Assembly (NCBI RefSeq): GCF_002835465.1
Contig: NZ_PIZM01000002.1
Coordinates: 62,001-126,000 of the forward strand
Direction: 5' to 3'
Source of the DNA: Psychromonas sp. psych-6C06
GTDB lineage: Bacteria; Pseudomonadota; Gammaproteobacteria; Enterobacterales; Psychromonadaceae
Length of the DNA stretch: 64,000 bases
Position numbers and translations under genes: made by a program. Positions 43,703-64,000 of this stretch are shown here, piece after piece; the first letter of the stretch is position 1; the number at the start of each line of letters is the position of its first letter. The notes beneath the pieces were generated by a model. The model worked only from the letters and a program-made list of their open reading frames with translations. It made no database searches and was not told the DNA's origin.

Positions 43703-43783
43703 AAGAAAGCCTAAAAGCTTAAAGCAGGAAGGCAGGAAGGCTGGAAAGCAGGTTTTGCCTTCAAGCCTTCAAGCCCTATAGCC
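43703..43783. repeat. AAGGCTT-type repeats, spacer permease/cysN
   Basis: A dense cluster of GGAAGGC, GCCTTCAAGCC and CTTAAAGC units in both orientations fills the whole 80-base spacer; it can fold into a long imperfect hairpin. Confidence 0.65.
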
Positions 43784-45196
43784 TTAAAGCTTTGTTACGT
43801 CTTTTGCTTCCCAATGCGGGAAATGTTTACGAACTAATGCGTTAAATTCAACTTCAAACGCGCTGTAAGCGTGTTCTTGTTCTTGTTTAACTGCTTCAAT
43901 TGAGCCACGAATCATACCAGCACCAACCGTAGCATTGCTTAGGCGGTCAATAATAATGAATGCGCCTGTACCACGGTTTTCATTATATGCATCAAACTGA
44001 ACGTGTTCAGCGACCTCAAAGTTACAACTACCTATCTCATTTAATTCAAGTTGCGTAGCCGCGGTTTGCTCCATTGTATTTACATCAGTTTTAGAGTTAA
44101 TCGCAACCACAGAGCCAACTGTTGAGTTAGTACCGACTTTAACAATGTATTCACGATCAACATGTAATGCATTTTCATCCATCCAAACCACATCAGCAAC
44201 AAAGTTTTTGCTTGATTCAGGTTTTTCATGTGGACGAACAATCATGTCACCACGACTAATATCGATTTCATCTTCTAGCGTTAACGTGATCGCCATGCCT
44301 TCAAATGCAGACTCAATATTACCGTCAAAAGTAACAATCTCTTTCACTTTACTTTGCTTACCAGAAGGTAATGCTTCAATGGTATCACCTACACGAATTT
44401 CACCCGATGCGATAGTACCGGCAAAACCACGGAAGTTTAGGTTAGGGCGATTAACATATTGCACGCCTAAACGGAACTTTTCGTTAGTGTCGCTATTAAT
44501 TTGCACAGAATCTAACAAACGCATTAACGGAGAACCTGGGTACCAAGGCATATTGGCACTTTGGTTAACTACGTTATCGCCTTTCAATGCAGAAATTGGC
44601 ACAAAGCGCACATCAGCAATGTTTAACTGCTCAGCAAACTCACGGTAATCAGATTTGATTTTTTTGTAAACTTCTTGATCGTATCCAACCGCATCCATTT
44701 TGTTCACAGCGATAACAACGTGCTTAATACCCAATAGCGAACAGATATAAGAGTGACGACGCGTTTGAACTTGTACACCGTGACGCGCATCGATTAGAAT
44801 AATCGCTAAATCACAGGTAGAAGCACCGGTGGCCATGTTACGTGTATACTGCTCATGCCCAGGAGTGTCCGCAATAATAAATTTGCGTTTCTCAGTTGCA
44901 AAGTAACGGTATGCAACGTCAATAGTAATACCCTGTTCACGCTCTGACTGAAGACCATCTACCAATAACGCTAAATCAAATGATTCATCGGTCGTATTAA
45001 ATTTCTTTGAATCTTTTTCAATAGCGGCCATGTGATCTTCAAAAATCATCTTACTATCGTATAACAGACGACCAATCAGTGTTGATTTACCGTCATCTAC
45101 GCTACCACAAGTGATAAAACGCATCATATCTTTGTTTTCGTGTGCGCGAAGATACCCTTCGATATCTGTCGCTAATAAATTTTGCTCATTAGACAT
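43784..45196 (-). CDS. cysN: CysN: sulfate adenylyltransferase GTPase subunit
   Basis: A 470-residue EF-Tu-like GTPase: G1 GSVDDGKS (31-38), G3 DTPGHEQY, G4 NKMD, followed by two beta-barrel domains. With CysD it forms ATP sulfurylase, making APS from sulfate and ATP driven by GTP hydrolysis. It ends without a fused CysC domain, matching the separate cysC gene downstream. AAGGA precedes the ATG. The normal cysD-cysN adjacency is broken by a four-helix-bundle gene. Confidence 0.95.
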
Positions 45197-45244
45197 TTTA
45201 AATTCCTTAAAACAAAGGCGAGAAAGCTATAATGCGTAAAGGCA
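45197..45244. repeat. AAGGCATT-type repeats, spacer cysN/four-helix-bundle gene
   Basis: A short run of AAGGCGAGAAAGC, GTAAAGGCATTAAGGC units directly borders the four-helix-bundle stop; same family as the other cys-operon spacers. Confidence 0.5.
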
Positions 45245-45604
45245 TTAAGGCAAATTCTTCGCATCCTCATTTATTCTCTTTATTAAGCCAGATAACATAG
45301 CTGCAATATGGCGCGTTTTATCGAGCCATTGTTGCCCAGCTTCGCTACCGATATAACCGATATCAATACCAATATAAACTTGCGTTCTTAATTCAGCACA
45401 AGAGGCTTTGGCAATCACTAAAAAGTGGCATTTATCTTTCGCCGTTTTGCGTGACATACCTTCAGCAATATTACTCGGTATCGATAAACCTGAGCGTGTT
45501 ATCTGATCTTTAAATCCATAATCTCGAGAGGTTTGAAAGTGAAGGTATAATTCAACAGCCAGTTGCTTTGATTCCTGCCATACACTTAACTTCTCAAAAT
45601 CCAT
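45245..45604 (-). CDS. four-helix-bundle protein (S23/IVS-encoded family)
   Basis: A 119-residue helical protein with the family signature RSGLSIPSNIAEG (about 38-50) and the opening DFEKLSVWQESKQLAVELY. The family is named from ORFs in 23S rRNA intervening sequences; free-standing copies are scattered in bacterial genomes, and the Avd protein of diversity-generating retroelements shares the fold. ATG 45604 follows GGAG by five bases. It is inserted between cysD and cysN on the same strand and is flanked on both sides by AAGGC repeats. Its job here is unknown; RNA or nucleic acid binding is likely from the family. Confidence 0.85.
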   Translation of the reverse strand: MDFEKLSVWQESKQLAVELYLHFQTSRDYGFKDQITRSGLSIPSNIAEGMSRKTAKDKCHFLVIAKASCAELRTQVYIGIDIGYIGSEAGQQWLDKTRHIAAMLSGLIKRINEDAKNLP

Positions 45605-45701
45605 TAACACTCCAATACAAATCTAGAAGGCTGTAATGCTTGAAGGTTTTGCTTTCTTGCCTTCTAGCTTTGAGCCTTTTAGCCTATCTCTAAGCCTTCG
45701 C
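45605..45701. repeat. AAGGCTT-type repeats, spacer four-helix-bundle gene/cysD
   Basis: AGAAGGCTGTAATGCTTGAAGG, in one orientation, is followed by GCCTTCTAGC, GCCTTTTAGCC and GCCTTCGCTTAG in the other. The spacer forms a long interrupted inverted repeat next to the inserted gene. Confidence 0.6.
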
Positions 45702-46610
45702 TTAGAAGTAACCTTCCATCTTTTTCTTTTCCATTGAACCAGCTGAGTCATTATCGATAACACGGCCTTGACGTTCAGATGTCGTAGTTAATAACATCTC
45801 TTGGATAATTTCAGGTAATGTTTTAGCTTCAGATTCAATGGCACCTGTTAATGGGTAACAGCCTAACGTACGGAAACGGACGCTTTTCATTTCAGGGACT
45901 TCACCTTCTTCAAGTGGCATACGATCATCATCTACCATAATAAGTGAGCCATCACGTTCAACAACAGGACGAGGCGCAGAGAAGTACAGTGGAACCATCT
46001 CAATCTCTTCTTGATAAATGTACTGCCAGATATCAAGCTCAGTCCAGTTAGAAAGCGGGAATACACGAATACTTTCACCACGGTCAACTTTAGAGTTATA
46101 GATATTCCAAAGCTCAGGACGTTGGTTTTTAGGATCCCAACGGTGCTTCTTGTCACGGAACGAATATACACGCTCTTTAGCACGAGATTTTTCTTCGTCA
46201 CGACGCGCGCCACCAAAAGCAGCATCAAAACCACCCGCATCTAAAGCCTGTTTAAGACCCTGTGTTTTCATCACATCGGTATGCTTAGCGCTGCCATGTG
46301 TAAAAGGTCCCATACCCATTGCTAACCCTTCAGGGTTTTTATGAACAAGCAACTCAAAATCATATTTTTTCGCTAAGTTATCGCGAAATTCAATCATCTC
46401 TTTGAATTTCCAGTCTGTATCTACATGCAATAAAGGAAATGGGATTTTACCTGGGTAAAATGCTTTACGTGCTAAATGCAGAAGTACTGAAGAATCTTTA
46501 CCAATTGAGTAAAGCATTACTGGGTTATCAAATTCAGCGGCTACTTCGCGCATAATTTGAATTGACTCAGCTTCCAATGCTTTCAGGTGAGTTAATCTAT
46601 TTTTATTCAT
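45702..46610 (-). CDS. cysD: CysD: sulfate adenylyltransferase subunit 2
   Basis: A 302-residue PP-loop ATPase subunit with [11 protein letters not shown] as the PP-loop, the [13 protein letters not shown] and [16 protein letters not shown] segments, and the conserved C-terminus [17 protein letters not shown]. It adenylates sulfate together with CysN. AAGGAAAG precedes the ATG. It heads the cysD, four-helix-bundle, cysN, permease, cysC run and is downstream of the kpsT-like gene by about 190 bases. Confidence 0.95.
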
Positions 46611-46804: not shown

Positions 46805-47455
46805 TTAAAGTTCCCTATAGATAGCAATAGCTTCAGCGAGATCGGAATAAAAAGTTAATCCCCCCTGGTGTAAAATAATTGCACTATCACAAAACTCTTC
46901 AATCTCTTTAATATCATGGCTTACCATGATCACATTTGCAGTTTTACTTTTATCAAGTAATGCTTGACGGGCTTTTTTGCGGAATTTTTGGTCTCCGACC
47001 GATGTTGCTTCATCGATAAGGTAAACCTCAAAGTCGATTGCAATACAACAACCAAAGGCAAGACGTGAGCGCATACCACTTGAGTAACTTTTTACTGGTA
47101 GATCATACTTTATTCCTAATTCAGCGAAGTTTTTCACCTTCTCTTCATATTCATCTAAATCTGCAACGCCATTCACGCGACCGATAAAACGTGTGTTTTC
47201 ACGCCCAGTCATTTGCGGATGAATACCCGTTGCTAAAGCAACAGGCCAAGAGATAGCTTTATCAGTAATCACTTTGCCCTTATTCGGATATTCACTGCCC
47301 GCTAAAATACGAAACAACGTGGATTTACCCGCACCGTTTGACCCCAAAATGCCAATATTATGCCCTTCAGGAATGGTGAAGTTAATATCTTGAAATATAT
47401 ACTGATTACCTAAATCGGAAGGGTAATACTTGGTGAGATTTTGTAGTTTAATCAT
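46805..47455 (-). CDS. KpsT/CtrD-like capsule-export ABC ATPase
   Basis: A 216-residue ABC ATPase: Walker A GSNGAGKS, signature SYSSGMRSRLAFG, Walker B VYLIDEATS and the switch His in MVSHD. Length and the short N-terminus (MIKLQNLTKYYPS) match KpsT/CtrD/BexA, which power export of group 2-type capsules through a KpsM permease; members of the O-antigen Wzt family are longer. The ATG at 47455 is chosen over an in-frame TTG three codons earlier; neither has a clear ribosome site. No permease gene is adjacent, which is unusual. Confidence 0.85.
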   Translation of the reverse strand: MIKLQNLTKYYPSDLGNQYIFQDINFTIPEGHNIGILGSNGAGKSTLFRILAGSEYPNKGKVITDKAISWPVALATGIHPQMTGRENTRFIGRVNGVADLDEYEEKVKNFAELGIKYDLPVKSYSSGMRSRLAFGCCIAIDFEVYLIDEATSVGDQKFRKKARQALLDKSKTANVIMVSHDIKEIEEFCDSAIILHQGGLTFYSDLAEAIAIYREL

Positions 47456-47464
47456 AAGTTTCAA

Positions 47465-49127: not shown

Positions 49128-50315
49128 TTACATCTCTATTTTACTCATTACCGTTTTAGCCATCTGTTGCATGATAACTTTACGTGAAAACTGATCAATA
49201 AAAGACTGTCTGCTACATTTTTCAAGGCGTAATAACTTTAGCTTTTCAACCGCAGAATTCGGGTCGTTGGGTATAAAAACCTGCGCATTGTCAATTTCAG
49301 TTTCTATAAATTGTTGAGTAAATCCAGTTGCCCCACATAACATCGGTTTACCGCTGGCAGCATACTCAAACAGTTTAGAAGGGATAACATAACTTAACGA
49401 TTCACTACTGTCTAAATTCAGAAATAACACATCGGCACGCTGATAATAATAAGGCAGCTCATCACGAGCAACAGGGGGAATGACCTCAACATTAGTGACC
49501 TTTAGCGTCTCTAATTTAGCGATAAGCTTTGCCATTCGCCTGCCATCACCAATTACCTTAAACTTAACCGTTTCCCCTAATAACAGAGCAATTTTAGGAA
49601 TAACATTTTCTAATGTTTGCGCGCGACCTATATTACCAGCATATAAAACCGTTAAGGGAGTTTTAAAATTAGAAGAGGGAAAACGAGGGTTGTCAGCTAA
49701 AAAAACATCATCAATACCATTTGTATAAAAAGAACGAGAAGCACTAATATACTTTTTGGAAAAGAATGGCTTAAAACCAGAAGAAACTAGATTAATATGG
49801 GTAGCTTGTTTAAAGGTGTAATAATTTAAAAAAGTCAGCACAGGTAACAGAAAAAACTTCACTTTAGCTGAGAAAAAATCTTTTACATTTTCAGCAAACA
49901 AATCTCGAATATCAAGCACTAAAGGCGCATCTTTTTTACGTGATAAGTAACTAGCAACAGAGGCGGTTAATAATTTGGCTGAAGTCGCATAAATAAGATC
50001 ATACTTTTCTCGTTTGACTTTTTTTATAACTTGCCTGAAAAACGAACTGGCAGCAAAAAGTTCACCTATGAACCGCCCACTATGTGAAGGGATTGCAATG
50101 CGCGTAATCGTGACGTTATCAAAGTGGCTCATATTATTGATAGCCGGCTTAAATGAAGAATAACGAGATGGGGTTGTTGTGACCACCTCAAAAGTGACAT
50201 TAGGGTATTGTTCAGCAAGTGCAATAATTAATGCATGACTTCTAAATGAGCAAGCAGAAATATCTGGGGCAAAAAAGTAACTTAGGATTAACACTCGTTT
50301 TTTATTAACCATCAT
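49128..50315 (-). CDS. glycosyltransferase family 4 protein
   Basis: A 395-residue GT-B fold glycosyltransferase. The N-terminal domain opens ILSYFFAPDISACSFRSHAL, typical of WbuB-like enzymes; the C-terminal GT4 domain contains VLYAGNIGRAQTLENVI, FKVIGDGRR and the nucleotide-sugar block PSKLFEYAASGKPMLCG. It transfers a sugar from a nucleotide donor during assembly of the repeat unit on the cytoplasmic face. It overlaps the previous glycosyltransferase stop by four bases (ATGA), so the two act in the same pathway. Donor and linkage cannot be read from sequence. Confidence 0.88.
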   Translation of the reverse strand: MMVNKKRVLILSYFFAPDISACSFRSHALIIALAEQYPNVTFEVVTTTPSRYSSFKPAINNMSHFDNVTITRIAIPSHSGRFIGELFAASSFFRQVIKKVKREKYDLIYATSAKLLTASVASYLSRKKDAPLVLDIRDLFAENVKDFFSAKVKFFLLPVLTFLNYYTFKQATHINLVSSGFKPFFSKKYISASRSFYTNGIDDVFLADNPRFPSSNFKTPLTVLYAGNIGRAQTLENVIPKIALLLGETVKFKVIGDGRRMAKLIAKLETLKVTNVEVIPPVARDELPYYYQRADVLFLNLDSSESLSYVIPSKLFEYAASGKPMLCGATGFTQQFIETEIDNAQVFIPNDPNSAVEKLKLLRLEKCSRQSFIDQFSRKVIMQQMAKTVMSKIEM

Positions 50316-51565
50316 TTATAGAGAGCCTGTCGATAGAGTTCAACCAATTTATGCTCTTGCTCTTGCCAACATAAATGTGGAGCTGCCTTGACAGCATTAC
50401 CTTTATATACCTCTCGCAATTCAGGAGAACACACCAATTTATTTAACACAACCACTAGCGCATTAAGATCGTTGTCAGGAACAACTTCACCAACTTGGTA
50501 TTGTTGTACCACTTTACGAATCTCAGGAAAATTAGTCGCCACCACCGGTAGCTCAGCCAATATATATTCAAACAGTTTATTTGAATCGGTAGAAAAATGA
50601 TTCAAGCAAGTATTTTCAATCGGTTGAACGCCAATATCAGCTGAAGCGGTATACTCAGGTAGTTCGGCTAATGCCACTGTCGGAATGAACTTCACTCTAC
50701 CTGTCACACAAAGATGCTCTGCAAGTTGCATCAGTTCAGTAGTTTGGCGACCGCCGCCGATAAATACAAAATAAGCGTTCGGCACATTCGATGCACATTC
50801 AACTAACTTGGGTAAACCTCGCCCCTGTTGTAAGCCACCTTGATAAACAATAATAGGCCAATCATCATGCTTTAGTTCAAGTTCTTTGCGTAATCGATTA
50901 CTATTTACACTAGAGGTATAATTTTCAGACAAGCAAGGCCTATTTTGTAAAACAATAGGCCTTGCTATGCCGTAAGCACGCGCAAAAAATTTAGCACGCA
51001 TATCAGTCGTCGTTATAGTGGCCACCGCTTTTGGCATCAGTTTTTTTTCAACCCAGCCAACCACATTACGAAAGGCTTGGTAACCTTCACGGCTAGTGCT
51101 GATTTCATGGGCGTCGTACACCAATGGAACTCGGCATATTTTTGAAGCAAACCATGCAGTCGGTAGTACATTCACATCATGTGCATGAATGGCATCGGGT
51201 TTGCTTTTAACCATCTGATAACACAAACCAGCATGTGTTGATAAACGTGCAATTAGGCGAAGTATCTGACGATGGGTAGCGAGTGATTTGACTTTAACTG
51301 GCGTAACAACGTGCTTAGTATTATCAACATGTTTTTTATGTTTACCACGTAATTTCCAAAAAGGGCTGCGTGCAACACGCTGCACTTTCACACCACTCGC
51401 TAATATCTCTTTCTCTTGTGTTTTATTGGGGGTGTGTAATGCAAACACCGTAACCTGATAACCAACACCTTGCAAAGTTTGCGCTTCTTTTAAAACACGA
51501 GCATCGTTAAGAAACTCATTCCAAACGAGCATGTGAATTTTTTTATTGTTTTTATTTTTAATCAT
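50312..51565 (-). CDS. glycosyltransferase family 4 protein
   Basis: A 417-residue GT-B enzyme with the N-terminal GT4-like domain (MLVWNEFLNDARVLKEAQTL; DAIHAHDVNVLPTAW) and C-terminal GT1-type domain (VYQGGLQQGRGLPKLVE; FVFIGGGRQ; NKLFEYILAELPVVATNFPE). It is coupled to the downstream glycosyltransferase by the four-base overlap. The ribosome site before ATG 51565 is weak, and a 510-base non-coding gap lies upstream, so this may be the first gene of its transcript. Confidence 0.88.
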   Translation of the reverse strand: MIKNKNNKKIHMLVWNEFLNDARVLKEAQTLQGVGYQVTVFALHTPNKTQEKEILASGVKVQRVARSPFWKLRGKHKKHVDNTKHVVTPVKVKSLATHRQILRLIARLSTHAGLCYQMVKSKPDAIHAHDVNVLPTAWFASKICRVPLVYDAHEISTSREGYQAFRNVVGWVEKKLMPKAVATITTTDMRAKFFARAYGIARPIVLQNRPCLSENYTSSVNSNRLRKELELKHDDWPIIVYQGGLQQGRGLPKLVECASNVPNAYFVFIGGGRQTTELMQLAEHLCVTGRVKFIPTVALAELPEYTASADIGVQPIENTCLNHFSTDSNKLFEYILAELPVVATNFPEIRKVVQQYQVGEVVPDNDLNALVVVLNKLVCSPELREVYKGNAVKAAPHLCWQEQEHKLVELYRQALYK

Positions 51566-52075: not shown

Positions 52076-52804
52076 TTACCTTTCTCGCTTTTCTCTATTA
52101 AGCTCTATTTTCAATTTTTGTGCGGCAGTTAGTCGATAATCTAAAATATAATGAAATGGCGCTATACCCCATTTATGGTTAAAATCAGGTGTGAACACTT
52201 TTAGAGGGAAAGAATAAACTTGCTCTTTATCTAAAACACTCTCAATAACATTGTAAAGTTTATCCAAATAATCATTGCGTTCTTTAGTCTCGCATTTTGA
52301 GTATTTCCATTCCGAATTAGGGGGATTAGGGAAACACCAATAGACTTTATTAAGCCTTACTTTGTCTAATAAATTGAATTTTTTAAGCTCTTCAATAAAA
52401 TTATTCCATCCACGCAACCAATATGAAAAATGTTCCTCTGTCCCAGACCTAATGACCTGGAAATCTATTTCATTAAACAATTGCTTAAAAGAAGGTGACA
52501 TTGTAGCAATACTCCCATTTGATGAAACACATAAATCAAGACGCTCATCAATCAAATCAATTAAAATAAGATCTGGATTATAATTTTTTACTGTTTCAAA
52601 TAACTGCTTATTCAAATCAAACTCTACCATTTTGGCTTGGAACTTTGACTTTATAGATTCAGTATCGGGTATGTGCTCAAATTTATCTGGTAAAAAAGAA
52701 GCTAATGATGTTCGAGCGTGATAATTAATATTAAATAATTTTTTTATTTCAGAAACTTCAAAAATATCCCTAGTTACACAAGACCCAACAATAAGGCACT
52801 TCAT
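52076..52804 (-). CDS. DUF6270-like polysaccharide-cluster protein
   Basis: A 242-residue soluble protein. The opening MKCLIVGSCVTRDIFE, followed by YHARTSLAS and later DLILIDLIDERLDL, matches DUF6270, an SGNH-hydrolase-like family found in capsule and LPS clusters. The Gly-Ser of GSCVTRD and an Asp-His near the C-terminus (FTPDFNHKWGIAPFHY) could form the catalytic set of an acyl-esterase or acyltransferase, but no activity is established as far as I know. ATG 52804 follows TGGAG by six bases. Strongly AT-rich like its two upstream neighbours. Confidence 0.65.
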   Translation of the reverse strand: MKCLIVGSCVTRDIFEVSEIKKLFNINYHARTSLASFLPDKFEHIPDTESIKSKFQAKMVEFDLNKQLFETVKNYNPDLILIDLIDERLDLCVSSNGSIATMSPSFKQLFNEIDFQVIRSGTEEHFSYWLRGWNNFIEELKKFNLLDKVRLNKVYWCFPNPPNSEWKYSKCETKERNDYLDKLYNVIESVLDKEQVYSFPLKVFTPDFNHKWGIAPFHYILDYRLTAAQKLKIELNREKRER

Positions 52805-52898
52805 ATTACGCTCCACTTACTATTTTATGTTTCATATCTAGTCTTTAAATTTAATTTATCTGCCACTGTAAATCATGAACTCTGGGAGTATTCCAAGC

Positions 52899-53801
52899 TT
52901 AGAAAGTAACTTTCTTTAGCAAAAGATCAAAGTTTGAAATTTCATCAAAATTAGTAACAATGCACTTACTACCAAATAGTTTTTTTGTTACAGAGGTTAA
53001 ACGTTCTATGTCGTTAAGATCTGTAAATTCATCGTCAATCATCATATATTGGTAATTTTGAGTGTTACTAATCACAAAGATAATTCTTTTGGCTTTATCA
53101 CACAATTCAAACATTCTTTTTAGCCTTTTATTTAAAGTATCGCTAATATTTTTAACATTCAAATTTTTGTCATATATTCCTTTACTTTTATTTTTAGTTG
53201 CAAGTTTATGCCAGTTATAATGTGCTAATACATACCTATTTTTTACATCTAACGTATAATAACCAAATGTAGAGTCAAGGTAATTGTTGATTGTATCAAT
53301 ATTTGACGAGCTTACTAACTTATCAATTTCCTCATATGAACTAGAGATAAACTTGATTCCTTTCCCATGTTTATCATGTAGATGATTTTCATATTTCATG
53401 CAAACTTGATGGTTATTTAACTTTTCATTTGGGTATTTCAAAGCAATATTTTTATTCTCTAAAATATTTGCAATTGCATCAGGAGAGAAAAAACCACTAT
53501 CAAATGGTAAAGAAGCTTGTTTGATCCGTAATTCATCTTCCAGCAGCCCTTTAGTAAAGCACCTAAAACCGGCCGGAATAACAACTAACTCACCACTACT
53601 GAGCATACCTTTAACTTTTATTCTTTGTTCGGAATCAATTGAATCTAACGCCAACTTATATTCATCTAATTTTTTTTTTATAAAGAGTCCAGAGGGCCTT
53701 TCATTGTAAGCCATTGCCATTAAATCGTGAGACACTTGGATATTTATATCCTCAAGAAGACAAGCAGCATCCCTGATTAGATTAATATTTCTTGATTTCA
53801 T
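52899..53801 (-). CDS. DUF1796-like (putative papain-like) protein
   Basis: A 300-residue protein that I recognise only loosely. The N-terminal third is helical; VVIPAGFRCFTKGLLED, then QASLPFDSGFFSPDAI, recalls the GxxCxxxxxL...xPFDW core of DUF1796 proteins, described as putative papain-like cysteine peptidases, with C112 as the candidate nucleophile. Lysine- and asparagine-rich composition sets it apart from the flanking wec and cys genes. GGGG precedes the ATG. It is downstream of the deacetylase/sulfotransferase gene, probably in the same transcript. A role in polymer modification is only inferred. Confidence 0.5.
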   Translation of the reverse strand: MKSRNINLIRDAACLLEDINIQVSHDLMAMAYNERPSGLFIKKKLDEYKLALDSIDSEQRIKVKGMLSSGELVVIPAGFRCFTKGLLEDELRIKQASLPFDSGFFSPDAIANILENKNIALKYPNEKLNNHQVCMKYENHLHDKHGKGIKFISSSYEEIDKLVSSSNIDTINNYLDSTFGYYTLDVKNRYVLAHYNWHKLATKNKSKGIYDKNLNVKNISDTLNKRLKRMFELCDKAKRIIFVISNTQNYQYMMIDDEFTDLNDIERLTSVTKKLFGSKCIVTNFDEISNFDLLLKKVTF

Positions 53802-53862: not shown

Positions 53863-55977
53863 TTACATATTTTGTATGTGTTCATTCCATGTTTTCCATA
53901 AGTTATTGTCTAATGAAAAACGTTTAATAAATTGATTGATATCAGATTCTAATAACCTAAAAATATAGCTTTGATCTGATTTATTGAAAGTGACTTTATC
54001 CGCACCTAGTACCATTCTTCTTGGATTACTTTTCTTTAAAGGCGTATACCGATCAAACGTTGAAATACAGAGGAAGTCTTCTATTTTTTGTAATGTATTT
54101 TTATGATCTGCAATTAACTCTTCTAACGATATAACTAAAATATTGTTTTTTCCTAATTGCTCTACATATGGATCTATGCGTTGATTGTAAAGAGATAGAT
54201 TAAATAAATGTGTATTTTCCTTCCACCTATTATCAGCTAATAAATCACTACTTAACTCTCCCCTTGAAATATGATGAGCTAATTGTGACTCAAGCCTCTT
54301 AATCGGGTCTCTGACTAAATAAATAATTTTAGCGTTAGGCGCAATGGCTTTTATTTGAGTAGCAGCAGTATTAGAGGCCGGAAACTTGGAGTAATGGGTT
54401 GAAGCTTCAAAAATAACTTTATTTTTCTTGGTAAATTTATCCCATGGCCACAGTGAGTAATATTCATTTTTACTGAGCAGATTTAAATCTCTCACCGCAA
54501 AATAACTTGGCTCTTTTACTGAGCATGGAAGCACTTCAGGGTGCTGACTTAACATATCCCATAACGTGCTAGTACCGCACTTCATTCCACCAATACAAAT
54601 AACAGGGAGTAAGCTGAAATCAGGTTTTTTTTTGTTTTTATTGAAATTCATTGCTTTCGCAATTGCTCGTTCCCAAAGGCTAACAGAAGCTTTTTTAGTT
54701 AAACTTTCATCACTAGATGCACCTGTTACCTTAGCAGGCTTGTTTTGGTTATTAAACTCATTAACAACCTCATAACGAGCAGATATATCGCTTTCAATGT
54801 TCATTGTGCCAGTCGAAATTGTGATACTTTGCGCAATACCATCAGAAACATTTCGTTTAGTGTACTCAGGCCTTACTATTTTTCCATTAAGCATAAAAAA
54901 GGTATTAAATGGGTCATCAGTATAAAAAGTAACTCCTTCCAGCTCCTTTATAATAAGATCTACACTCTTTCCTAAAACGGGGTCGTTTATTGACGTAATA
55001 TTAATAATACAGCCTTTTTCTAAACGAATAACCTCATACTCTAAAAATTCATTGACACGGTTATAGTTGAGTAACTTAGAAGTCGAAACCACATTAATTT
55101 TAGATTTAGAATAATCAGAAAGTTTTTTTAATGCAGCGATAGCTTCTGGCGTAAATTTATTATTAGTATCTTTGATATTACCAAAATGCTGAGTAACAAT
55201 AGCGTACTGCTGATTGACAAAAAGCGACTCAAGCCTTTCTGTGGTTAACTGTAAATCCAATAAAGAAGGATGCCATAATACAGCTTCATTCTTATCTTTC
55301 CCCCAAAAAATAGCTCCTCGAGCTTCATAATATTTTTTTTCATCAGCATTAACAAAGTAACTATGAAAACGAGGAAAGCCCCATATATTTTCTCCATTTT
55401 TTAATTTTAATGGTGAAAGCATTGAGGAATGCCCAAATATATCTCTTTGTTTAGGGTTCCATATATATTTCACCCCAATTTTTTTACATATATCGTAGTG
55501 ATAAGAAGCATCATCAGGGGTAGCTCCTTGCATATAAGAGTAAGCGCCTAAATTCTGTGTATTATTTTCATCACCATGATTAACCCAAACATCAAAGGTG
55601 AGCTTGTGTTTATCTAAAAATTCAAACGATTTAAGTGCATAATCTCTATTAAAGTTATTAGATGCCTCTGTCTGTGAAAAATTTCCATATGTATGTAACG
55701 TATCAATCCAATCTTTATTTATATAATATTTTAGTTTTCGCCAATACGGTGCCAGCTTTTCCGTTCCCATATCAAAAAAAGCTAGCTGCTTACCAGATTT
55801 AGCATTACTTGCAAACATCCAAATAGAATCAGAAAAATTTAATTCTATTTGATGTCTAGGGTGCTTGATTAGGTCATGGATATATTCAAAATTTTCTGGT
55901 GTTGTCGAATCAATATCGCTCGAGATAGCTAGCATTGCTTTGTAAGGATACGGAAATTTTCTTAATTTAATATTCAT
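53863..55977 (-). CDS. fusion: polysaccharide-deacetylase-like domain and PAPS sulfotransferase
   Basis: A 704-residue two-part protein. Residues 1-310 look like a NodB-type beta/alpha barrel: AMLAISSDID gives an acidic pair D21/D23, and later HTYGNFS and VWVNHGDENN supply His residues. Residues about 310-440 are a beta-rich linker ending in a charged region. Residues about 455-704 are a sulfotransferase, with the 5'-phosphosulfate loop GGMKCGTSTLW (about 460-470) and the 3'-phosphate motif YLVRDPIKRLESQ (about 548-560). It would sulfate, and perhaps deacetylate, the polymer made by the cluster, using PAPS from CysDNC. Its ATG is two bases after the stop of the giant glycosyltransferase gene. 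Confidence 0.75.
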   Translation of the reverse strand: MNIKLRKFPYPYKAMLAISSDIDSTTPENFEYIHDLIKHPRHQIELNFSDSIWMFASNAKSGKQLAFFDMGTEKLAPYWRKLKYYINKDWIDTLHTYGNFSQTEASNNFNRDYALKSFEFLDKHKLTFDVWVNHGDENNTQNLGAYSYMQGATPDDASYHYDICKKIGVKYIWNPKQRDIFGHSSMLSPLKLKNGENIWGFPRFHSYFVNADEKKYYEARGAIFWGKDKNEAVLWHPSLLDLQLTTERLESLFVNQQYAIVTQHFGNIKDTNNKFTPEAIAALKKLSDYSKSKINVVSTSKLLNYNRVNEFLEYEVIRLEKGCIINITSINDPVLGKSVDLIIKELEGVTFYTDDPFNTFFMLNGKIVRPEYTKRNVSDGIAQSITISTGTMNIESDISARYEVVNEFNNQNKPAKVTGASSDESLTKKASVSLWERAIAKAMNFNKNKKKPDFSLLPVICIGGMKCGTSTLWDMLSQHPEVLPCSVKEPSYFAVRDLNLLSKNEYYSLWPWDKFTKKNKVIFEASTHYSKFPASNTAATQIKAIAPNAKIIYLVRDPIKRLESQLAHHISRGELSSDLLADNRWKENTHLFNLSLYNQRIDPYVEQLGKNNILVISLEELIADHKNTLQKIEDFLCISTFDRYTPLKKSNPRRMVLGADKVTFNKSDQSYIFRLLESDINQFIKRFSLDNNLWKTWNEHIQNM

Positions 55978-55979
55978 AT

Positions 55980-58900
55980 TTAACCTAGTTTTATTACATT
56001 TAACTCTAGAGTCGCGATACTTTCCTGCGAACGACGCTGTTTAATATTCTGAGATGATAGCTGTGATCTGTTTTCAAAATCACCATCAGTCATGACTATT
56101 GATTCAATCGCATTTGCAATTTCTACATAATTTTCTGCGGTAGCAAGATATCCTTCATCGTCATTTAAAAACTCAGGAATTGCAGCTACCGAATTAGTTA
56201 CCGGCACTAACCCCGAAGCCATCGCTTCATCCCGAGACACCCCCTGTGTATCCATCCGACTTGGACATAAGAACACTCCATACTCTTTATGCAACTTTGC
56301 AATTTCATCTTGAGTTAAGAACTTCTGCTCTATTTTAACATTGCTAAAATGTTTAATCGGCGCTAACACTTCATCAAATAAAGGCCCATCGCCAACAAAA
56401 TGAAACTCTAACTCACTAAAAAACGTTTTCTTAGATAACTCAAGAACTGCAGAAACCGCTAAATCATTTGCATATATTTTGCTTGCATAAGGGCGAATTG
56501 ACAGAATCTTTTTACGTTGATGCGCCTCTTTTTCTTGATAAGTAAAAAGGTCTGTATTGATCGGATTTGATATTATTGAATAGCTTAGTTCATTACCGTC
56601 AACGCTATAATCCTCCATTGTTGTATCAGCTAAATAATTTGAAACAAAAACAAAGTGAAGATTTTCAGATTTATACTTTAATACTGTATTCCAAAGAAGC
56701 TTTTTCTCTTCGAACTGAGCTTCGCCCACTGCAATTTTATCTTCAGTATCAAAGAGCACTTTGCGTCTATACCATGGCTGCACTTCTGCACCATGCACCC
56801 AAACGGTCACTTTAATTTTATCAATAAACTCCGACAACACTTCCCACATCTGCGCATCTAAAAAGTGCACCAGTACATGTTTATACTGCCCTGATTTCAG
56901 CATTTTTCTTAAAGCAGCTTGTGCACCGGTGATCACATTAATATTCTGAAATTCGTGCCAACTGATCGGTTCACCTTGGCGCAATCTAAAGATATCAACA
57001 TTGACATGATGCTCTTGATACGCTTTAGCGCGGCTGTGTACAAACCCATTACGGTATAAATCATCATAGCTTGGGTAATGGTTAGTTAAAATCAGAAACT
57101 CCGATTGGCCAAACACTTTTTCTGGTTGTAAGTCTTTATGCCCAAAAATAAGCGACTTGATTTTAGCCTCACCGCTCGAAAGCACACGCAGGCCAAAACG
57201 GATAAATTCAGTTTCAAAAGGTAAGTCGACAGTGTGGTTACGGTTTGCCTGCAAAATATGGTGGCTAATACGTTGTTTATTAGCATCAAGATATAGCAAT
57301 ACGATAGATATATTTAAACCGGGTTCAATATCAAAATGTATCGGCAATGTAGCATTAACTTCAGCTTCAGAAAAATCAACACGCGCGATATCCTGATTTG
57401 CATATAAATAATCATGCTTTGCATCGGCCAACGTAGAGTGAACATTTAAACCACCCTGTTCAGCTTCAAGTTTCACTTGTTTAGCATCTTTAATTTTAAG
57501 TAGCTCAGTAAACTGCTCTCCTTTAATCGACATACAATTATCAGCTTGACTGAGTACAGGTTGTATTTTTTCTGCCTCATCGAGTAACTCATTTAAGCTT
57601 ATCCCTGTATTAAATGGCAAATCTGCGACTTTGGTTTCTACTCCAGCTATGTCAGCATCATACAGTTCTAGCCCCCTGTTCAAACAATAGTTATATGGGT
57701 CGATCGAAAGTTGTTCAGGGTATTGATAAGCGCATTCACTGACTGTTTTCAACCATTGTTTACAGGATACATCATTCAATAAAGTGAGCGATATAATTGC
57801 ACTACGCGCACTTAATTTATTAGCAGATTGGTAAAAAATATTCGTTTTCGGCTCAATCAGGTGTCCTTTTTTCCATTCGAAACAAGCCCCTTTACCGATA
57901 ACTTTTGCACAACTATAACGTGTGGCTAATACTAAATCGTGTAAGTATGCTTGCCCCACATAGTCATGAACAGAAAAGTAAGTTATCCAACTTGCCTCAG
58001 TGAATAGCTCTGCCAGAGCATGCTGATTAAATTCAGAGTGTAATAATAACGTTGTCTTAAATGGTGCTTGCTTCAGCCCCTCTTCAAGTTCTTGCTTAAC
58101 CTTTTTACTATTAACAACAACGACTAATTCTGTTGAGACATGCTCCTGCTTATTTACGTTATTAAGTAAAATCTCTAATTGCGCACTATTTTTTATTTTA
58201 CTGACGATACCTATTGTTGGTAATGTCATTGTTAGCGGTTTATTTAATACTTTGTTTTGAACATAATTGAGTCTGTCTTGATAAGTGTGCTCAGACATCA
58301 CTTTACGAAGCGCAATCAATTTTAATCGTTCAATACCATGTGCCATGCCTTCAACTTTTTGTAGCCTACTAACCGCCTCTTTACCATCATCAGTGGTAAT
58401 AACGAGATCAGCAAATAACAGCCTCACCCCCTGTGAAAAATTACTAATCGTAACGGTATTGCTTGCTAATAACTCATAAACTCGACGCGCAAACATCGAC
58501 TGTGATTGTTTTATCGAGTTTAAATTGATCGCATAATCATAACCTTTATAGGCTTTATCGATCTCTTTAAAGGGTAATGTGCCAACAATATAAGGGTTAT
58601 ACACCTCAGGAAATTGGTAGTTACTATCCTGTTTACCATAGTTCCTATCGTAAATATCTAATGTTTTAAACTTTGGTAAGTCTTTAACAAATGATTCGAG
58701 ATCCTTTGTTCTTTCGGGGTATTTAACGTAATAAGCGCCTGCAAAACTAACAGCAGACTTACGTTGATACTTTTCTAATGGATTATTAGTTAGTGGTTGA
58801 CAAGCAAAAGGTAAAAAATATACGTTTTCATGCTTTAACGCGGCTTTATAGCGTTGAATACAATCAATATCTGTTGTGAATACATGGTCAAATCGCTTCG

Positions 58901-61900
58901 CCGTATTTAAAAACGTTTCAAAATGAATCGGATCTTCTTTATTCCAAAATGCCGTCGGCACGTTATGTGCATTACACCACTTTATGATGTTTTTTACTTC
59001 ATCGCTGAGGTGGCCAACTTTACTCCCCCAAAGCTCATCTTTTCCGCGCCAAGCAGACTCAATAAATAACATTTCAGGTTGAAATTCTTGCAACTCTTTT
59101 TGCCAATTAGCTGGCGTTAATTGCTGTAATTCACATTCGGGCAAATAAGATTGATAAGTAAAATTATCCATGATGCAAGCAACTTTTAGGTTACTATTTT
59201 TTATATGATCATTAAGATACAGTGCGCTAATATCATCGGCATTTGAGTGTAACTCGATCGTCACAGTATTCTCTTTTCGCTCAAATGCAGGTGATGTTTT
59301 CAACGAATGACTTATTTTGCTTTCTAGGGGCGTAACTGGCTTTGCTCTGTTTGTTGATTGTTTATAGAGTCGCCAAAGCCCAACAGGTAATTTAGCCCAG
59401 CCAACCGGCGTTTTAATATGTTTTTTTAATAAGGTTCCAGCTTTAAAAGTATTGCTACTTCTAATCGCAAGTACGCGCTTTTTAGCGAGAACATTTTCAT
59501 TATTTGCTTTTTTTAAGCTTTCCTTTAATTGCTCTACCTCTAACTGTAATTTCCTACGATGTTCAAGCTCAGCTTCCCATTTATTTTTTAATTCAGGTAT
59601 TTGCTCTGCAGTCGCCGTTCGGTACTTTTGATTGGCGTTATCGAGCAAGCGCTCCAGTTGTGAGCTGTAATTATTAAGCCTATCTATCTCTTTTTTAGCA
59701 TCCGCACATTGTAGTGCCAAAGTTAGTTGCGCATCTTTACTTTGTTCAATCATTAATGCTTTCTCTGCAAGTTGCTTTTCTAGTTCAATAACATTTGATT
59801 TGTCATCTGCATTAGTTTTTTCTAAATGTTCACTTTTGATATGGGCACTGCTGAGTTGTGCTTGAATATTACTGTATTCAACCTTGAGTAATCGTATTTT
59901 TTCACTCTGCTCAGATAGCTCTGTACTTAGTAGTTGTAGCCTTTCATTGGCAACGTTTAAGCTAATCGCTGACTTATCGAGTTCAATTAACGTTTCCTCA
60001 TGTTCATCCCATAAATCAGATAACTCAACATTTAAAGATTCATTTCTTTGCTCAAGCAAGTCTTTCTCTTCAGATAAAGCGCTAACCGAAGCTTGGTATT
60101 GCTCGGCTAAGGTGACTTTATTAGCATTTAAAATCTTTAACTCATTACGGAATTCAGCAGACAATTTATCCATTTTTACTGTTATTGCTTTCTTCGATTC
60201 TGACTCAGTAACTAATGAAGCCTCAAGTTGCGTTACTTCATCAAATAAAGTAGCTACTTCTTGTTCCAGATCTGATTTTTCTTGCTTTATGAGCGTCAAG
60301 CTTGCTAAAGATTGCTCTAATTGTTGACCCACTTCTTGTAATTGAAGTTTATCGTCCTGCGCCGATAACTCTAGTTCATCAAAATTAGCCTTAACTTCTT
60401 TAAATACAATTGTACTTTCTGTTAGTTTTCTTTCTGTTTCAGATAAATATTCAGTACAAATAGCATAGCGTTCGCTTAAATCCTGTTGCTGTTGATTTAG
60501 AGACGATAGCGTATCAGTCAGATGTGTAACCTCAGCACCTAACTTGCTATTTTCATCGCTAGATGCCTGTAAATTTTTATCCTTTACTTCCATCGACGAT
60601 TGTAAAGCAATCACTTCTCTCTGAAGAGACTCCTGTTCACTTAGTTTTTGTTGTTCGATTAAAATTAATTTATTTTCTAACTCTGCAATACGTTGAATAT
60701 GAGTAGATTGCTGTTCAACTAACTCATTTATACGCTGATTCTCTTGTAACTCCTTTTTTAATAGAGTAACCAGCTCTGACTTTTGAGCCTTTAACTCTTT
60801 TTTTAAACTTTCGATTTGTAAAAGCCCCGTACTTAGCTGCTCTTGAAGTACTGACTCATTTTCTTGCGATGAAAGGATTATGCTAGCTTTATCATCATTG
60901 AGTTGTTTTAAATCATCAATGCGCTGACAAGCCAATCTATATTTCTCATTTGCGGCATCAAGCTTCGCATGCACTATAGAAAGTTGCTCTTTTTCTTGCT
61001 CAATATTTCGTAAGCTTTCATTTAACTTTAAAAGCTCTTGCTCTAAGGATTTATTTTGCGCTCTTTCTTGCTCAATAGTATTTGATTGCTTACTAACTGC
61101 ATCATACTTTTCTTGCAATACTGACAATTCAATTTGTCGCTCATTTGCACTTTGCGTTACATTGCGGTATTTGAGGTTGCATTCATGAAGCTGCTTTCTT
61201 AACTGCGTGGCATCCATTTGCGCACTGTATAGTTCGCGTAAATTTTTTGTAACAATATGATTGATTTTATCATCCAGTGATATTTTTTCATTGGCGATAT
61301 AAAGATGTGTTGGGGAAGCATTAAAAGTATCCCAGTAACTATATCCAAACTCAGTTAATAAATTACTAATAGTTGTGAAATCAGTTTCTGATAAACACTC
61401 AATATAGATATCAGGCTTATCACGAAGAATTAAGGCCTTACCACCTTTTAAAACTTCGAGTTCAAACCCTTCGACATCAATTTTAATTAGGGAAATTGGA
61501 GCTTTCCAGTCGAAACTATCTAAGGCTTTTACATCAAAAGTTTCAATATCGGCTTCGTCAGTAATTTCGATGCTTTGCCCACCTAAATTGTCATTGTTGA
61601 TAGCCTCAAAACAAGCTTTTTCTTCTTTAGCCCCTAATGCACAATCATGAATAGTAACTTTATTCTCTAACCTATTTTCAGTACGGCTGACTTCCATCGC
61701 TTCACAAAGGGATTTATTAGGCTCAAACGCATGCACGTTGCACTTAACTACGCTCGCTAGGTAAAGAGTATGATTACCAACATTGGCACCTACATCAATT
61801 ACATTATCGCCTTCAGATAAACGGGATCGCATATCTTCTAACATAGATAATTCATAAGGCACTAAAGCGGTTGCAATCTTCTTTTGAATATAGTCAGTTT

Positions 61901-61967
61901 CTTTATGCGGTAAGCAAATCGTATAATCAACACCGTGCTCTCGCAGTAAAACAAGGTTCTTCGTCAT
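55980..61967 (-). CDS. giant FkbM methyltransferase / coiled-coil / multi-glycosyltransferase protein
   Basis: A protein of 1995 residues from ATG 61967 (TTG 61979 is the other option). Domains in order: FkbM-type SAM methyltransferase (about 35-220; SAM loop DVGANVGNHT 58-67; LIKIDVEGFELEVL); a coiled coil of roughly 600 residues (about 235-835); a basic GT linker; a CgeB/DUF3880-type glycosyltransferase (about 915-1235; FSFAGAYYVKYPERT, MFARRVYELLAS); a degenerate GT2-like domain (about 1245-1420); a beta-sandwich-like segment (about 1480-1610); and a C-terminal GT4 domain (about 1620-1990; EMKK-type RPYASKIYANDL, FVGDGPLFDE, DTQGVSRDEAMASGLVPV). No membrane helix. It probably elongates and methylates a polysaccharide chain, the coiled coil perhaps acting as ruler. 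Confidence 0.8.
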   Translation of the reverse strand: MTKNLVLLREHGVDYTICLPHKETDYIQKKIATALVPYELSMLEDMRSRLSEGDNVIDVGANVGNHTLYLASVVKCNVHAFEPNKSLCEAMEVSRTENRLENKVTIHDCALGAKEEKACFEAINNDNLGGQSIEITDEADIETFDVKALDSFDWKAPISLIKIDVEGFELEVLKGGKALILRDKPDIYIECLSETDFTTISNLLTEFGYSYWDTFNASPTHLYIANEKISLDDKINHIVTKNLRELYSAQMDATQLRKQLHECNLKYRNVTQSANERQIELSVLQEKYDAVSKQSNTIEQERAQNKSLEQELLKLNESLRNIEQEKEQLSIVHAKLDAANEKYRLACQRIDDLKQLNDDKASIILSSQENESVLQEQLSTGLLQIESLKKELKAQKSELVTLLKKELQENQRINELVEQQSTHIQRIAELENKLILIEQQKLSEQESLQREVIALQSSMEVKDKNLQASSDENSKLGAEVTHLTDTLSSLNQQQQDLSERYAICTEYLSETERKLTESTIVFKEVKANFDELELSAQDDKLQLQEVGQQLEQSLASLTLIKQEKSDLEQEVATLFDEVTQLEASLVTESESKKAITVKMDKLSAEFRNELKILNANKVTLAEQYQASVSALSEEKDLLEQRNESLNVELSDLWDEHEETLIELDKSAISLNVANERLQLLSTELSEQSEKIRLLKVEYSNIQAQLSSAHIKSEHLEKTNADDKSNVIELEKQLAEKALMIEQSKDAQLTLALQCADAKKEIDRLNNYSSQLERLLDNANQKYRTATAEQIPELKNKWEAELEHRRKLQLEVEQLKESLKKANNENVLAKKRVLAIRSSNTFKAGTLLKKHIKTPVGWAKLPVGLWRLYKQSTNRAKPVTPLESKISHSLKTSPAFERKENTVTIELHSNADDISALYLNDHIKNSNLKVACIMDNFTYQSYLPECELQQLTPANWQKELQEFQPEMLFIESAWRGKDELWGSKVGHLSDEVKNIIKWCNAHNVPTAFWNKEDPIHFETFLNTAKRFDHVFTTDIDCIQRYKAALKHENVYFLPFACQPLTNNPLEKYQRKSAVSFAGAYYVKYPERTKDLESFVKDLPKFKTLDIYDRNYGKQDSNYQFPEVYNPYIVGTLPFKEIDKAYKGYDYAINLNSIKQSQSMFARRVYELLASNTVTISNFSQGVRLLFADLVITTDDGKEAVSRLQKVEGMAHGIERLKLIALRKVMSEHTYQDRLNYVQNKVLNKPLTMTLPTIGIVSKIKNSAQLEILLNNVNKQEHVSTELVVVVNSKKVKQELEEGLKQAPFKTTLLLHSEFNQHALAELFTEASWITYFSVHDYVGQAYLHDLVLATRYSCAKVIGKGACFEWKKGHLIEPKTNIFYQSANKLSARSAIISLTLLNDVSCKQWLKTVSECAYQYPEQLSIDPYNYCLNRGLELYDADIAGVETKVADLPFNTGISLNELLDEAEKIQPVLSQADNCMSIKGEQFTELLKIKDAKQVKLEAEQGGLNVHSTLADAKHDYLYANQDIARVDFSEAEVNATLPIHFDIEPGLNISIVLLYLDANKQRISHHILQANRNHTVDLPFETEFIRFGLRVLSSGEAKIKSLIFGHKDLQPEKVFGQSEFLILTNHYPSYDDLYRNGFVHSRAKAYQEHHVNVDIFRLRQGEPISWHEFQNINVITGAQAALRKMLKSGQYKHVLVHFLDAQMWEVLSEFIDKIKVTVWVHGAEVQPWYRRKVLFDTEDKIAVGEAQFEEKKLLWNTVLKYKSENLHFVFVSNYLADTTMEDYSVDGNELSYSIISNPINTDLFTYQEKEAHQRKKILSIRPYASKIYANDLAVSAVLELSKKTFFSELEFHFVGDGPLFDEVLAPIKHFSNVKIEQKFLTQDEIAKLHKEYGVFLCPSRMDTQGVSRDEAMASGLVPVTNSVAAIPEFLNDDEGYLATAENYVEIANAIESIVMTDGDFENRSQLSSQNIKQRRSQESIATLELNVIKLG

Positions 61968-62006
61968 CTTTTTTATCAACTTATTGTTTGAGTTAACATT
62001 AATGGG

Positions 62007-63272
62007 TTAGCCCCAAACACCACGGGTATCGATTAAATTTTTGAGTTTACTGCCTTGAACTGTCGCATTTTTAAATTCTTTATGATCAACCAGCAAGACT
62101 GAAATATCAGCTTGCTCAAAAGCAACATCCATATTTACAAGGGTGCTATTAGCGAGTTTATTAGCAGGGAGGGAGTCAATATTAGGCTCAACAATGAGTA
62201 CATTTCCTGCATGAAATGCATCAATTTCTGTGGTAATTTGTAAAGCAGGGCTTTCACGCAGATCATCAATATCAGGTTTGAAGGCAATACCATAACAAGC
62301 GATGGTGACATCTTTAGCCGATTTTTCAGGGTTAGCCGATAAGAATGAAGCCAGTTGTAATTTCACCTGCTCGATCACCCAATGCGGTTTACTATCATTC
62401 ACTAAACGTGCAGTGTGAATCAATTTTGCTTCATCAGGTGTTTTAGCAACGATAAACCAAGGGTCAACGGCAATACAATGCCCACCAACACCGCAGCCAG
62501 GCTGTAATATATTGATACGCGGGTGACGATTGGCAAGCTCAATTAACTCCCACACATTAATATCTAACTTATCGCAGATAATTGAAAGCTCATTGGCAAA
62601 GGCAATCTGTACATCACGACAGCTATTTTCTGTCAGCTTTGCCATTTCTGCAGTACGTGCATTAGTGATCACACACTCCGCTTTAACAAAAGTTTTATAG
62701 AGTAAAACAGCTCGCTCAGAGCATTTTGCAGACATTCCCCCTATCACACGATCATTTTCGACTAATTCACGCACTACGTGCCCGGGTAATACACGTTCAG
62801 GGCAATGGGCGACATTTACATCAGCCACATCACCGACTTGTTGAGGAAAAGAAAGATCTGCTCTTGCTTCAGCTAGCCATTGAGCTACGCTCTCCGTTGC
62901 TCCAACAGGTGAGGTAGACTCTAAAATAACCAAGTCACCTTTTTTCAACACAGGAGCAATCGCATCACAAGCAGACTTAATATAAGTTAAATCAGGTTCA
63001 TTTTTCCCTTTAAACGGCGTAGGCACCGCAATCAAGAATGCATCCGCAGGCTCAGGTGTACTAACCGCTTTTAAGTACCCTTCGGTTACCGCCGCATGTA
63101 CTAAAATATCAAGCTCTGGCTCAACAATGTGGATTTGACCTTGGTTGATGGTATCGATTGCATGTTGATTAACATCTACACCAATCACTTTAATCTTGCG
63201 AGAGGCAAACATTGCGGCAGTTGGTAAGCCAATATAACCCAGTCCGATAACTGATATTGTTTCGAATGACAT
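62007..63272 (-). CDS. wecC: WecC: UDP-N-acetyl-D-mannosamine dehydrogenase
   Basis: A 421-residue nucleotide-sugar dehydrogenase: Rossmann motif GLGYIGLP (10-17), VPTPF, STSPVGATE, the catalytic-cysteine block GCGVGGHCIAVDPWF and a C-terminal UDP-binding domain. The VAHCPERVLPGH and HPRINILQPG segments separate WecC from UDP-glucose dehydrogenases. It oxidises UDP-ManNAc twice to UDP-ManNAcA. It lies about 100 bases downstream of wecB and about 40 bases upstream of the giant glycosyltransferase gene. Confidence 0.93.
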   Translation of the reverse strand: MSFETISVIGLGYIGLPTAAMFASRKIKVIGVDVNQHAIDTINQGQIHIVEPELDILVHAAVTEGYLKAVSTPEPADAFLIAVPTPFKGKNEPDLTYIKSACDAIAPVLKKGDLVILESTSPVGATESVAQWLAEARADLSFPQQVGDVADVNVAHCPERVLPGHVVRELVENDRVIGGMSAKCSERAVLLYKTFVKAECVITNARTAEMAKLTENSCRDVQIAFANELSIICDKLDINVWELIELANRHPRINILQPGCGVGGHCIAVDPWFIVAKTPDEAKLIHTARLVNDSKPHWVIEQVKLQLASFLSANPEKSAKDVTIACYGIAFKPDIDDLRESPALQITTEIDAFHAGNVLIVEPNIDSLPANKLANSTLVNMDVAFEQADISVLLVDHKEFKNATVQGSKLKNLIDTRGVWG

Positions 63273-63370: not shown

Positions 63371-64000
63371 TTATAATGACAGCGTATCCAGAATACGTTG
63401 ACATGCTTCCCCGTCACCATAAGGGTTATGAGCAAAGCTCATTGTCTGGTAAGCAGTTTCATCTGTTAACAACTGGTTTAAGTTTTTTACGATTGTATCA
63501 ACATCTGTCCCAACCAGTTTCACTGTGCCTGCTGACACCGCTTCAGGACGCTCAGTTGTATCACGCATTACCAGTACCGGTTTCCCTAGAGAAGGCGCTT
63601 CCTCTTGAATGCCACCAGAATCGGTTAAAATAATATGTGATCGATTCATCAAATAGATGAAAGGTAGATACTGCTGTGGTTCAATCAGAAAAACGTTGTC
63701 AATTCCAGCTAAAATACGATTTACAGGCTCCCTAACATTCGGATTTAAATGCATAGGATATAAAATTTGAACCTCAGGATGTGCTTTAGCTGTTATCGCA
63801 AGTGATTCACAGATACGTTCAAAACCACCACCAAAACTTTCTCGTCGATGACCTGTCACTAAAATCAACTTTTTAGATTCATCTAAGAACGGAAATTTTT
63901 TTGCTAACTCACCGTTAAGTTCAATATCGTTTACTATTTTGTCTTTGACTAATAACAAGGCATCAATCACCGTGTTACCAGTGATGGTTATGGTTTTATC
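63371..64000 (-). CDS. wecB: WecB: UDP-N-acetylglucosamine 2-epimerase (N-terminus outside window)
   Basis: The C-terminal 209 residues of a non-hydrolysing UDP-GlcNAc 2-epimerase; the frame is open to the window edge ([13 protein letters not shown] is the normal internal sequence). Visible motifs are [17 protein letters not shown], the [13 protein letters not shown] block, [20 protein letters not shown] and RPEAVSAGT, all diagnostic. It converts UDP-GlcNAc to UDP-ManNAc for WecC. First gene seen of the minus-strand polysaccharide cluster. Confidence 0.93.

Follow-up and report, generated by a model that had tools for sequence, protein, structure and literature searches.

We found that a single open reading frame (ORF) in the marine bacterium Psychromonas sp. 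psych-6C06 joins a deacetylase-like barrel to a sulfotransferase domain, and on balance we favour the view that its product is a cytoplasmic bifunctional enzyme which deacetylates an N-acetylated capsule sugar and then sulfates the glycan. The ORF lies within a stretch of 64,000 nucleotides that was analysed as a whole (the window). It begins with ATG, has no internal stops, and is uninterrupted on an 835-kb contig in the whole-genome search. The chain is divided as follows:

53863..55977, minus strand: deacetylase-like barrel/sulfotransferase fusion ORF, 704 aa (ORF call, Pfam, AF2 models)
54805..55977, minus strand: N-terminal domain, residues 1-391 (AF2 model, VIA-align, family in genome collections)
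54616..54804, minus strand: linker, residues 392-454, ~60 aa (pLDDT <50 for 392-416)
53866..54615, minus strand: sulfotransferase domain, residues 455-704 (Pfam, invariant columns, AF2, VIA-align, profile)

The intact ORF, the Pfam matches of its C-terminal part and the confident AF2 model of the barrel bear out the preliminary description, which had proposed these two domains in one chain. Since residues invariant in the respective families are retained in both halves, the ORF is not a chance open frame. The highest 19-residue Kyte-Doolittle mean in the protein is 1.3, and because a strong hydrophobic segment is absent, the protein is probably cytosolic, where PAPS is.

AF2 modelling of residues 1-416 with 53 family sequences gave a pLDDT of 88.4 and a pTM of 0.89, with low confidence for residues 392-416, and the model shows a NodB-like (beta/alpha) barrel (about residues 6-311) followed by a small beta domain (312-391). 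In VIA-align, the top matches of the AF2 barrel were polysaccharide deacetylases or allantoinase (Z 12.6-13.4). The Z scores were 13.4 for 3s6o, 13.3 for 3cl6, 12.7 for 3rxz, 12.6 for 3qbu and 11.4 for ArnD, and 4dwe matched with a Z of 13.3 over 307 residues, spanning 1-411. Agd3 (Z 9.3), human NDST1 (8.4) and ChbG (8.2) ranked lower, and GH57 enzymes and chitin deacetylases also ranked below the top polysaccharide deacetylases. Foldseek by itself was weak (best E 1.6e-3), with a probability of 0.98 for the polysaccharide deacetylase 3rxz. The N-terminal domain is thus predicted to adopt the barrel fold of NodB and polysaccharide deacetylases.

Sequence searches of the same domain were negative: Pfam, NCBIfam and PHROGs returned zero matches, a PDB sequence search returned nothing with either the single sequence or the profile, the Polysacc_deac_1 (PF01522) profile was unmatched by the barrel family, and a Pfam scan of 53 family members gave zero matches to YdjC. 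Likewise, hhalign of the barrel family against CE4 and PuuE-type sets from related genomes showed nothing significant, with CE4 probabilities <1%. The TFDDG and H-[ST]-x-x-H motifs are absent; the barrel family has S20-D-x-D and H-[ST]-[YF]-G-[DN] motifs. Among profile-profile comparisons, only a bridging family, A8 (L149, L152, L153), tied the barrel family to CE4. A8 aligned with the barrel family at an hhalign probability of 98.5% (E 2.7e-15) and weakly, over the DD motif and that of the first His, with CE4 (E 5.7e-4). Its motifs are D-D-x-D, E-I-x-x-H, a later His and Y-T-H-F, and it retains equivalents of H95, H134 and H264 of the fusion, and not that of position 99. Taken together, these results support the earlier suggestion that the domain might be of NodB type at the level of the fold, but not as membership of NodB/CE4 by sequence.

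Four elements in the barrel were identified as a candidate active site:

55909..55917, minus strand: motif 1, D21-x-D23, candidate base/metal ligand (D23 in 67/67 sequences, D21 in 66/67)
55681..55695, minus strand: motif 2, H95 (candidate metal ligand)...N99 (H95 in 66/67)
55576..55578, minus strand: H134 in V-W-x-[DN]-H, proposed second metal His at the position of ChbG H125 (67/67; kept in A8)
55186..55188, minus strand: H264, proposed catalytic acid, equivalent of NDST1 H529 / ChbG H206 (67/67; kept in A8)

The 67-sequence alignment also shows D92 in all members and R203 in 66. In the AF2 model, D21/D23 come after the strand formed by residues 14-20, H95 ends strand 91-95, H134 comes after 130-132 and H264 after 258-263, and judging from these strand ends of the predicted model the proposed metal residues would lie close together in space. 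The HxxxH of CE4 and NDST is absent: position 99, four residues after H95, is N in the fusion and mostly D or N in relatives (D47/N12/E4/H3/K1 among the 67 sequences). H264 lies in Q-H-F-G in the fusion and mostly in Y-[ST]-H-L-G in relatives. NDST1 uses D319 as base, D320/H389/H393 for the metal and H529 as acid (PMC10864358). In ChbG, the metal is held by D11, H61 and H125, with D10 as base and H206 as acid, and H125, which overlaps the second CE4 His in space, does not align with it by sequence (PMC9402603). The D, D, H95, H134, H264 order of the barrel family fits this scheme, and a metal triad in the fusion, if there, would be of the ChbG type, formed by an Asp, H95 and H134. Either D21 or D23 may be the metal ligand, with the other as base, and the CE4 metal Asp aligns to D21 in the A8-CE4 alignment. 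As regards the Asp-His-His metal site to be sought by structure prediction, a D/D/H/H/H set lies after barrel strands, but the CE4-type HxxxH is missing.

The barrel may instead be another hydrolase of the fold superfamily (an O-deacetylase, another amidase or a glycosidase), or it may bind glycans without catalysing a reaction. The fold is common to GH57, GH38 and allantoinase, which are found among the structural matches, the triad is unlike that of CE4, and one family member (L049) has His instead of D21. However, D23, H95, H134 and H264 are essentially invariant across many phyla, which argues for catalysis, and the top structural matches are carbohydrate deacetylases, so we regard this explanation as rather improbable.

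The C-terminal part matched Sulfotransfer_3 (1.5e-14) and Sulfotransfer_1 (2.2e-11) in Pfam, and AF2 of residues 440-704 with 12 sequences gave a pLDDT of 84. K466, E489, R556 and S564 are invariant in the sulfotransferase alignment; the 5'-PSB is G463-x-x-K466-C-G-T, K488-E489-P provides the catalytic Glu position, and the 3'-PSB is R556...S564. In VIA-align, the sulfotransferase model matched 3-OST-3 (Z 24.6), 3rnl (24.4) and NDST1 (24.3), with the next group at 16. The profile search gave 2e-67 for 3rnl, 6e-35 for 3-OST-3, 7e-29 for NDST1 and 4e-10 at best for cytosolic sulfotransferases. By these measures the domain groups with the heparan-sulfate 3-O-/N-sulfotransferase clade, a grouping which may hold for many bacterial sulfotransferases, and it is slightly closer to 3-OST and the bacterial 3rnl than to NDST. 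Alicyclobacillus acidocaldarius 3rnl and human 3-OST have the same sulfotransferase fold and PAPS motifs as the fusion but, unlike it, carry no fused deacetylase-like domain.

The clade placement fits N- and O-sulfation equally well. The chain could therefore combine a deacetylase with an O-sulfotransferase, the two acting on different positions of the same glycan with no N-sulfate formed. This arrangement would resemble NodB and NodH, which deacetylate and sulfate one aminosugar oligomer, the rhizobial Nod factor. NodB and NodH are two separate proteins with 6-O sulfation, whereas the fusion is one chain. O-sulfation is in keeping with the 3-O-sulfotransferases and the bacterial sulfotransferase standing at the NDST level of Z, with the higher profile score for 3-OST, and with the standalone sulfotransferase of the sister cluster being of a more divergent type. 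On the other hand, the passing on of a freed amine is the simplest explanation for fusion to a predicted N-deacetylase. We consider O-sulfation a serious alternative, with the odds nevertheless against it.

The fusion gene lies in a capsule locus, in and near which the following genes were found:

63371..63970, minus strand: WecB-type UDP-GlcNAc 2-epimerase, 3' part; full gene at L104:371-1489 (Pfam Epimerase_2, NCBIfam wecB)
62007..63272, minus strand: UDP-N-acetyl-D-mannosamine dehydrogenase (WecC type), for UDP-ManNAcA (NCBIfam NF008286, 742.9 bits, over cut-off)
55980..61979, minus strand: 1999-aa FkbM methyltransferase / coiled coil / two glycosyltransferase domains (domain search)
52899..53801, minus strand: 300-aa protein of no family with an S-L-P-F-D motif, next gene downstream of the fusion (family search)
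52076..52816, minus strand: DUF6270 protein of capsule cluster (family search)
50312..51565, minus strand: GT4 glycosyltransferase (family search)
49128..50315, minus strand: GT4 glycosyltransferase (family search)
46805..47464, minus strand: ABC ATPase resembling polysaccharide-export ATPases (TagH/Wzt) (family search)
41163..46610, minus strand: sulfate activation genes, whole block (family searches)
45702-46610, minus strand: CysD-like (family search)
43784-45196, minus strand: CysN-like (family search)
41975-43702, minus strand: anion permease (family search)
41163-41810, minus strand: CysC, the sole APS kinase in the genome

The 1999-aa ORF is 2 bp upstream of the fusion gene, with the WecC and WecB genes upstream of it in turn; downstream of the fusion, the 300-aa gene sits between it and the DUF6270 gene, and both GT4 genes follow. 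The 1999-aa ORF, with its long coiled coil, is apparently one protein. KpsE-like, KpsM-like and Wza/EpsE-like export genes lie just beyond the window end (L104), and a HepT/MntA-type toxin-antitoxin pair is found between the KpsM-like and Wza-like genes, some 3 kb beyond the window end (L104:4044-4891). The locus uses Kps-type ABC export, in which the polymer is completed in the cytoplasm, and a cytosolic enzyme can therefore reach it. Since the locus has genes for UDP-ManNAc and UDP-ManNAcA, an N-acetylated polymer is likely. The suggestion that the substrate is a GlcNAc- or ManNAc-containing polymer thus gains support as regards the polymer, while action of the fusion on it is only presumed. 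We had considered the sulfate genes as a dedicated PAPS supply for the fusion and dropped this idea; they are probably ordinary assimilation genes, because the genome has no APS kinase other than the cysC found nearby. A gene for a four-helix-bundle protein (45245-45610, minus strand) lies between the cysD-like and cysN-like genes.

In the mechanism we propose, the barrel would act as a metal-dependent carbohydrate deacetylase in which one of D21/D23, together with H95 and H134, holds the metal, the other Asp serves as base and H264 as acid. The barrel would take the N-acetyl group off a ManNAc/GlcNAc-type capsule residue, and the tethered sulfotransferase would then move sulfate from PAPS onto the same glycan. 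The acceptor would most simply be the freed amine, as in NDST, or otherwise a hydroxyl, and both domains would work in the cytoplasm, the site of PAPS synthesis. Evidence against this mechanism comes from the missing direct CE4 profile similarity, the missing HxxxH, the presence of the fusion in one genome, and the Bacillota relatives of the barrel, most of which are signal/lipoprotein-like and have no sulfotransferase. The narrower reading is a one-chain bacterial N-deacetylase/N-sulfotransferase that arose independently of animal NDST, when a new NodB-fold deacetylase family was joined to a heparan-sulfate-type sulfotransferase, and that gives N-sulfated capsule aminosugars; this reading is tentative and less likely than not.

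The comparison with animal NDST confirms the order of deacetylase then sulfotransferase that had been noted before: in both proteins a single chain runs from a barrel of the deacetylase fold into a sulfotransferase, and their sulfotransferases fall in the same structural and profile clade. The Asp pair and acid-His logic of NDST1 also resembles that of the fusion barrel (PMC10864358). However, NDST has an N-terminal Rossmann-like domain, which the fusion lacks (its barrel begins at residue ~6), and NDST1 has HxxxH (H389/H393), whereas the fusion barrel has none and is from a different family. NDST is a Golgi protein, and the fusion is probably cytoplasmic and in a ManNAc(A)-type context. No match to the HSNSD family signature of Pfam was found in the fusion at E<=1, and the barrel-family profile matched no NDST1 chains in the PDB, whereas the sulfotransferase profile did. 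PF12062 likewise gave no match in 200 genomes or in the fusion's own genome, but the control of that search was silent too, so this negative carries no weight. The identical domain order and the shared sulfotransferase clade would suit a genuine bacterial NDST whose whole chain either came from the animal enzyme or gave rise to it, but the unmatched HSNSD-CE Pfam entry and NDST1 profile, the absent NDST N-terminal domain and the grouping of the barrel with Bacillota standalone proteins make such descent highly improbable. By these tests the fusion is not an NDST, and it resembles NDST without common descent as a whole protein. The proposed functional parallel with NDST thus holds for the layout and probably for the chemistry, with deacetylation and N-sulfation both putative.

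ChbG/YdjC shares the barrel fold with the fusion, and its D10, D11, H61, H125 (on a later strand) and H206 can be set against D21, D23, H95, H134 and H264. The Asp residues are adjacent in ChbG but D-x-D in the fusion, which is larger, has an extra C-terminal beta domain and has no Pfam match to this family. CE4/NodB (PF01522) proteins are the best structural neighbours of the barrel and have the motif-5-like His in common with it, but differ in their TFDDG and H-[ST]-x-x-H motifs and give no significant profile match.

Among the barrel-family ORFs checked, the two domains occur together only in the ORF of the window, and no other sulfotransferase fusions were found; the other Psychromonas genomes searched have the standalone form only. 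We found no report of a bacterial deacetylase-sulfotransferase fusion in the literature searched, the coverage of which was incomplete. The fused barrel clusters with Bacillota proteins in the tree (SH-aLRT 97), on a long branch and outside the gammaproteobacterial standalone clade, which includes the paralogue from its own genome (G000:C6, L002), a standalone protein with the same invariant residues. An assembly artefact or a decaying gene fusion would be in line with the single genome, the long branch and the GC content of the gene (33% vs 39% for the window), but the intact 704-codon frame on a long contig, the catalytic residues in both halves and the 2-bp gap to the upstream capsule gene leave this explanation hardly any probability. 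The gammaproteobacterial cluster is the only other clear link between deacetylase-like and sulfotransferase activities. In the sister clade locus L105 (10994-14784), the sulfotransferase, flippase and standalone barrel genes are in a row, and in the conserved Psychromonas/Alteromonadaceae cluster a separate sulfotransferase gene is two ORFs from the standalone barrel gene. The sulfotransferase is at an equal distance from the barrel gene in a dozen related loci, and the pairing counts once because this is one inherited cluster.

Should the fusion both N-deacetylate and N-sulfate, it would represent a bacterial counterpart of NDST that arose by convergence and could be put to use in heparin biosynthesis. 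Expression of full-length NDST is difficult (PMC12834895), and the fusion could offer a bacterial substitute. N-sulfated, glycosaminoglycan-like polymers have been reported from bacterial granules / extracellular matrices (PMC10788855), and the fusion would be a candidate enzyme and gene behind such polymers.

The barrel family is widespread, and the catalogues searched give it neither a name nor a function; its fusion to a sulfotransferase strongly hints at the function of the family as a whole. A single-sequence scan of the genome collection found no relatives, while a scan with the alignment recovered 67 loci, spread over Bacillota, Fidelibacterota (Neomarinimicrobiota), Zixiibacteriota, Bacteroidota, Planctomycetota, Omnitrophota and others. 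With the further members from phylum-level searches, the family covers at least ten phyla, usually as standalone proteins beside glycan-biosynthesis genes; across phyla, the adjoining genes on the same strand mostly encode glycosyltransferases, flippases, hexapeptide transferases and methyl-/formyltransferases. The N-terminus carries K-[FY]-P-Y-P-Y (the 'K-F-P-Y-P-Y' family). In the viral contigs and phages searched, there were zero relatives. A tblastn search found an Alicyclobacillus lipoprotein-like protein with 33% identity over residues 5-387. The Alicyclobacillus proteins are standalone members with the invariant residues of the fusion. By inspection, signal- or lipobox-like sequences are present in many Bacillota members, and the N-terminus of others carries a hydrophobic stretch or lacks one; many standalone members, unlike the fusion, thus look exported or membrane-anchored. 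The Alicyclobacillus members (L033, L034-L044, other Bacillota loci) are exported/lipoprotein-like and present in more than one copy per genome, and some were seen outside obvious capsule clusters on a plasmid. In Omnitrophota, one member is fused to an FkbM methyltransferase (L151:9-2129; Pfam 1.2e-7). In another genome (G622, L106:1296-6597), a 900-aa sulfotransferase/methyltransferase ORF, whose C-terminal part is NodB-like by eye with zero Pfam matches, adjoins a divergent barrel-family member of 914 aa, and this gene pair is a second possible deacetylase/sulfotransferase pairing.
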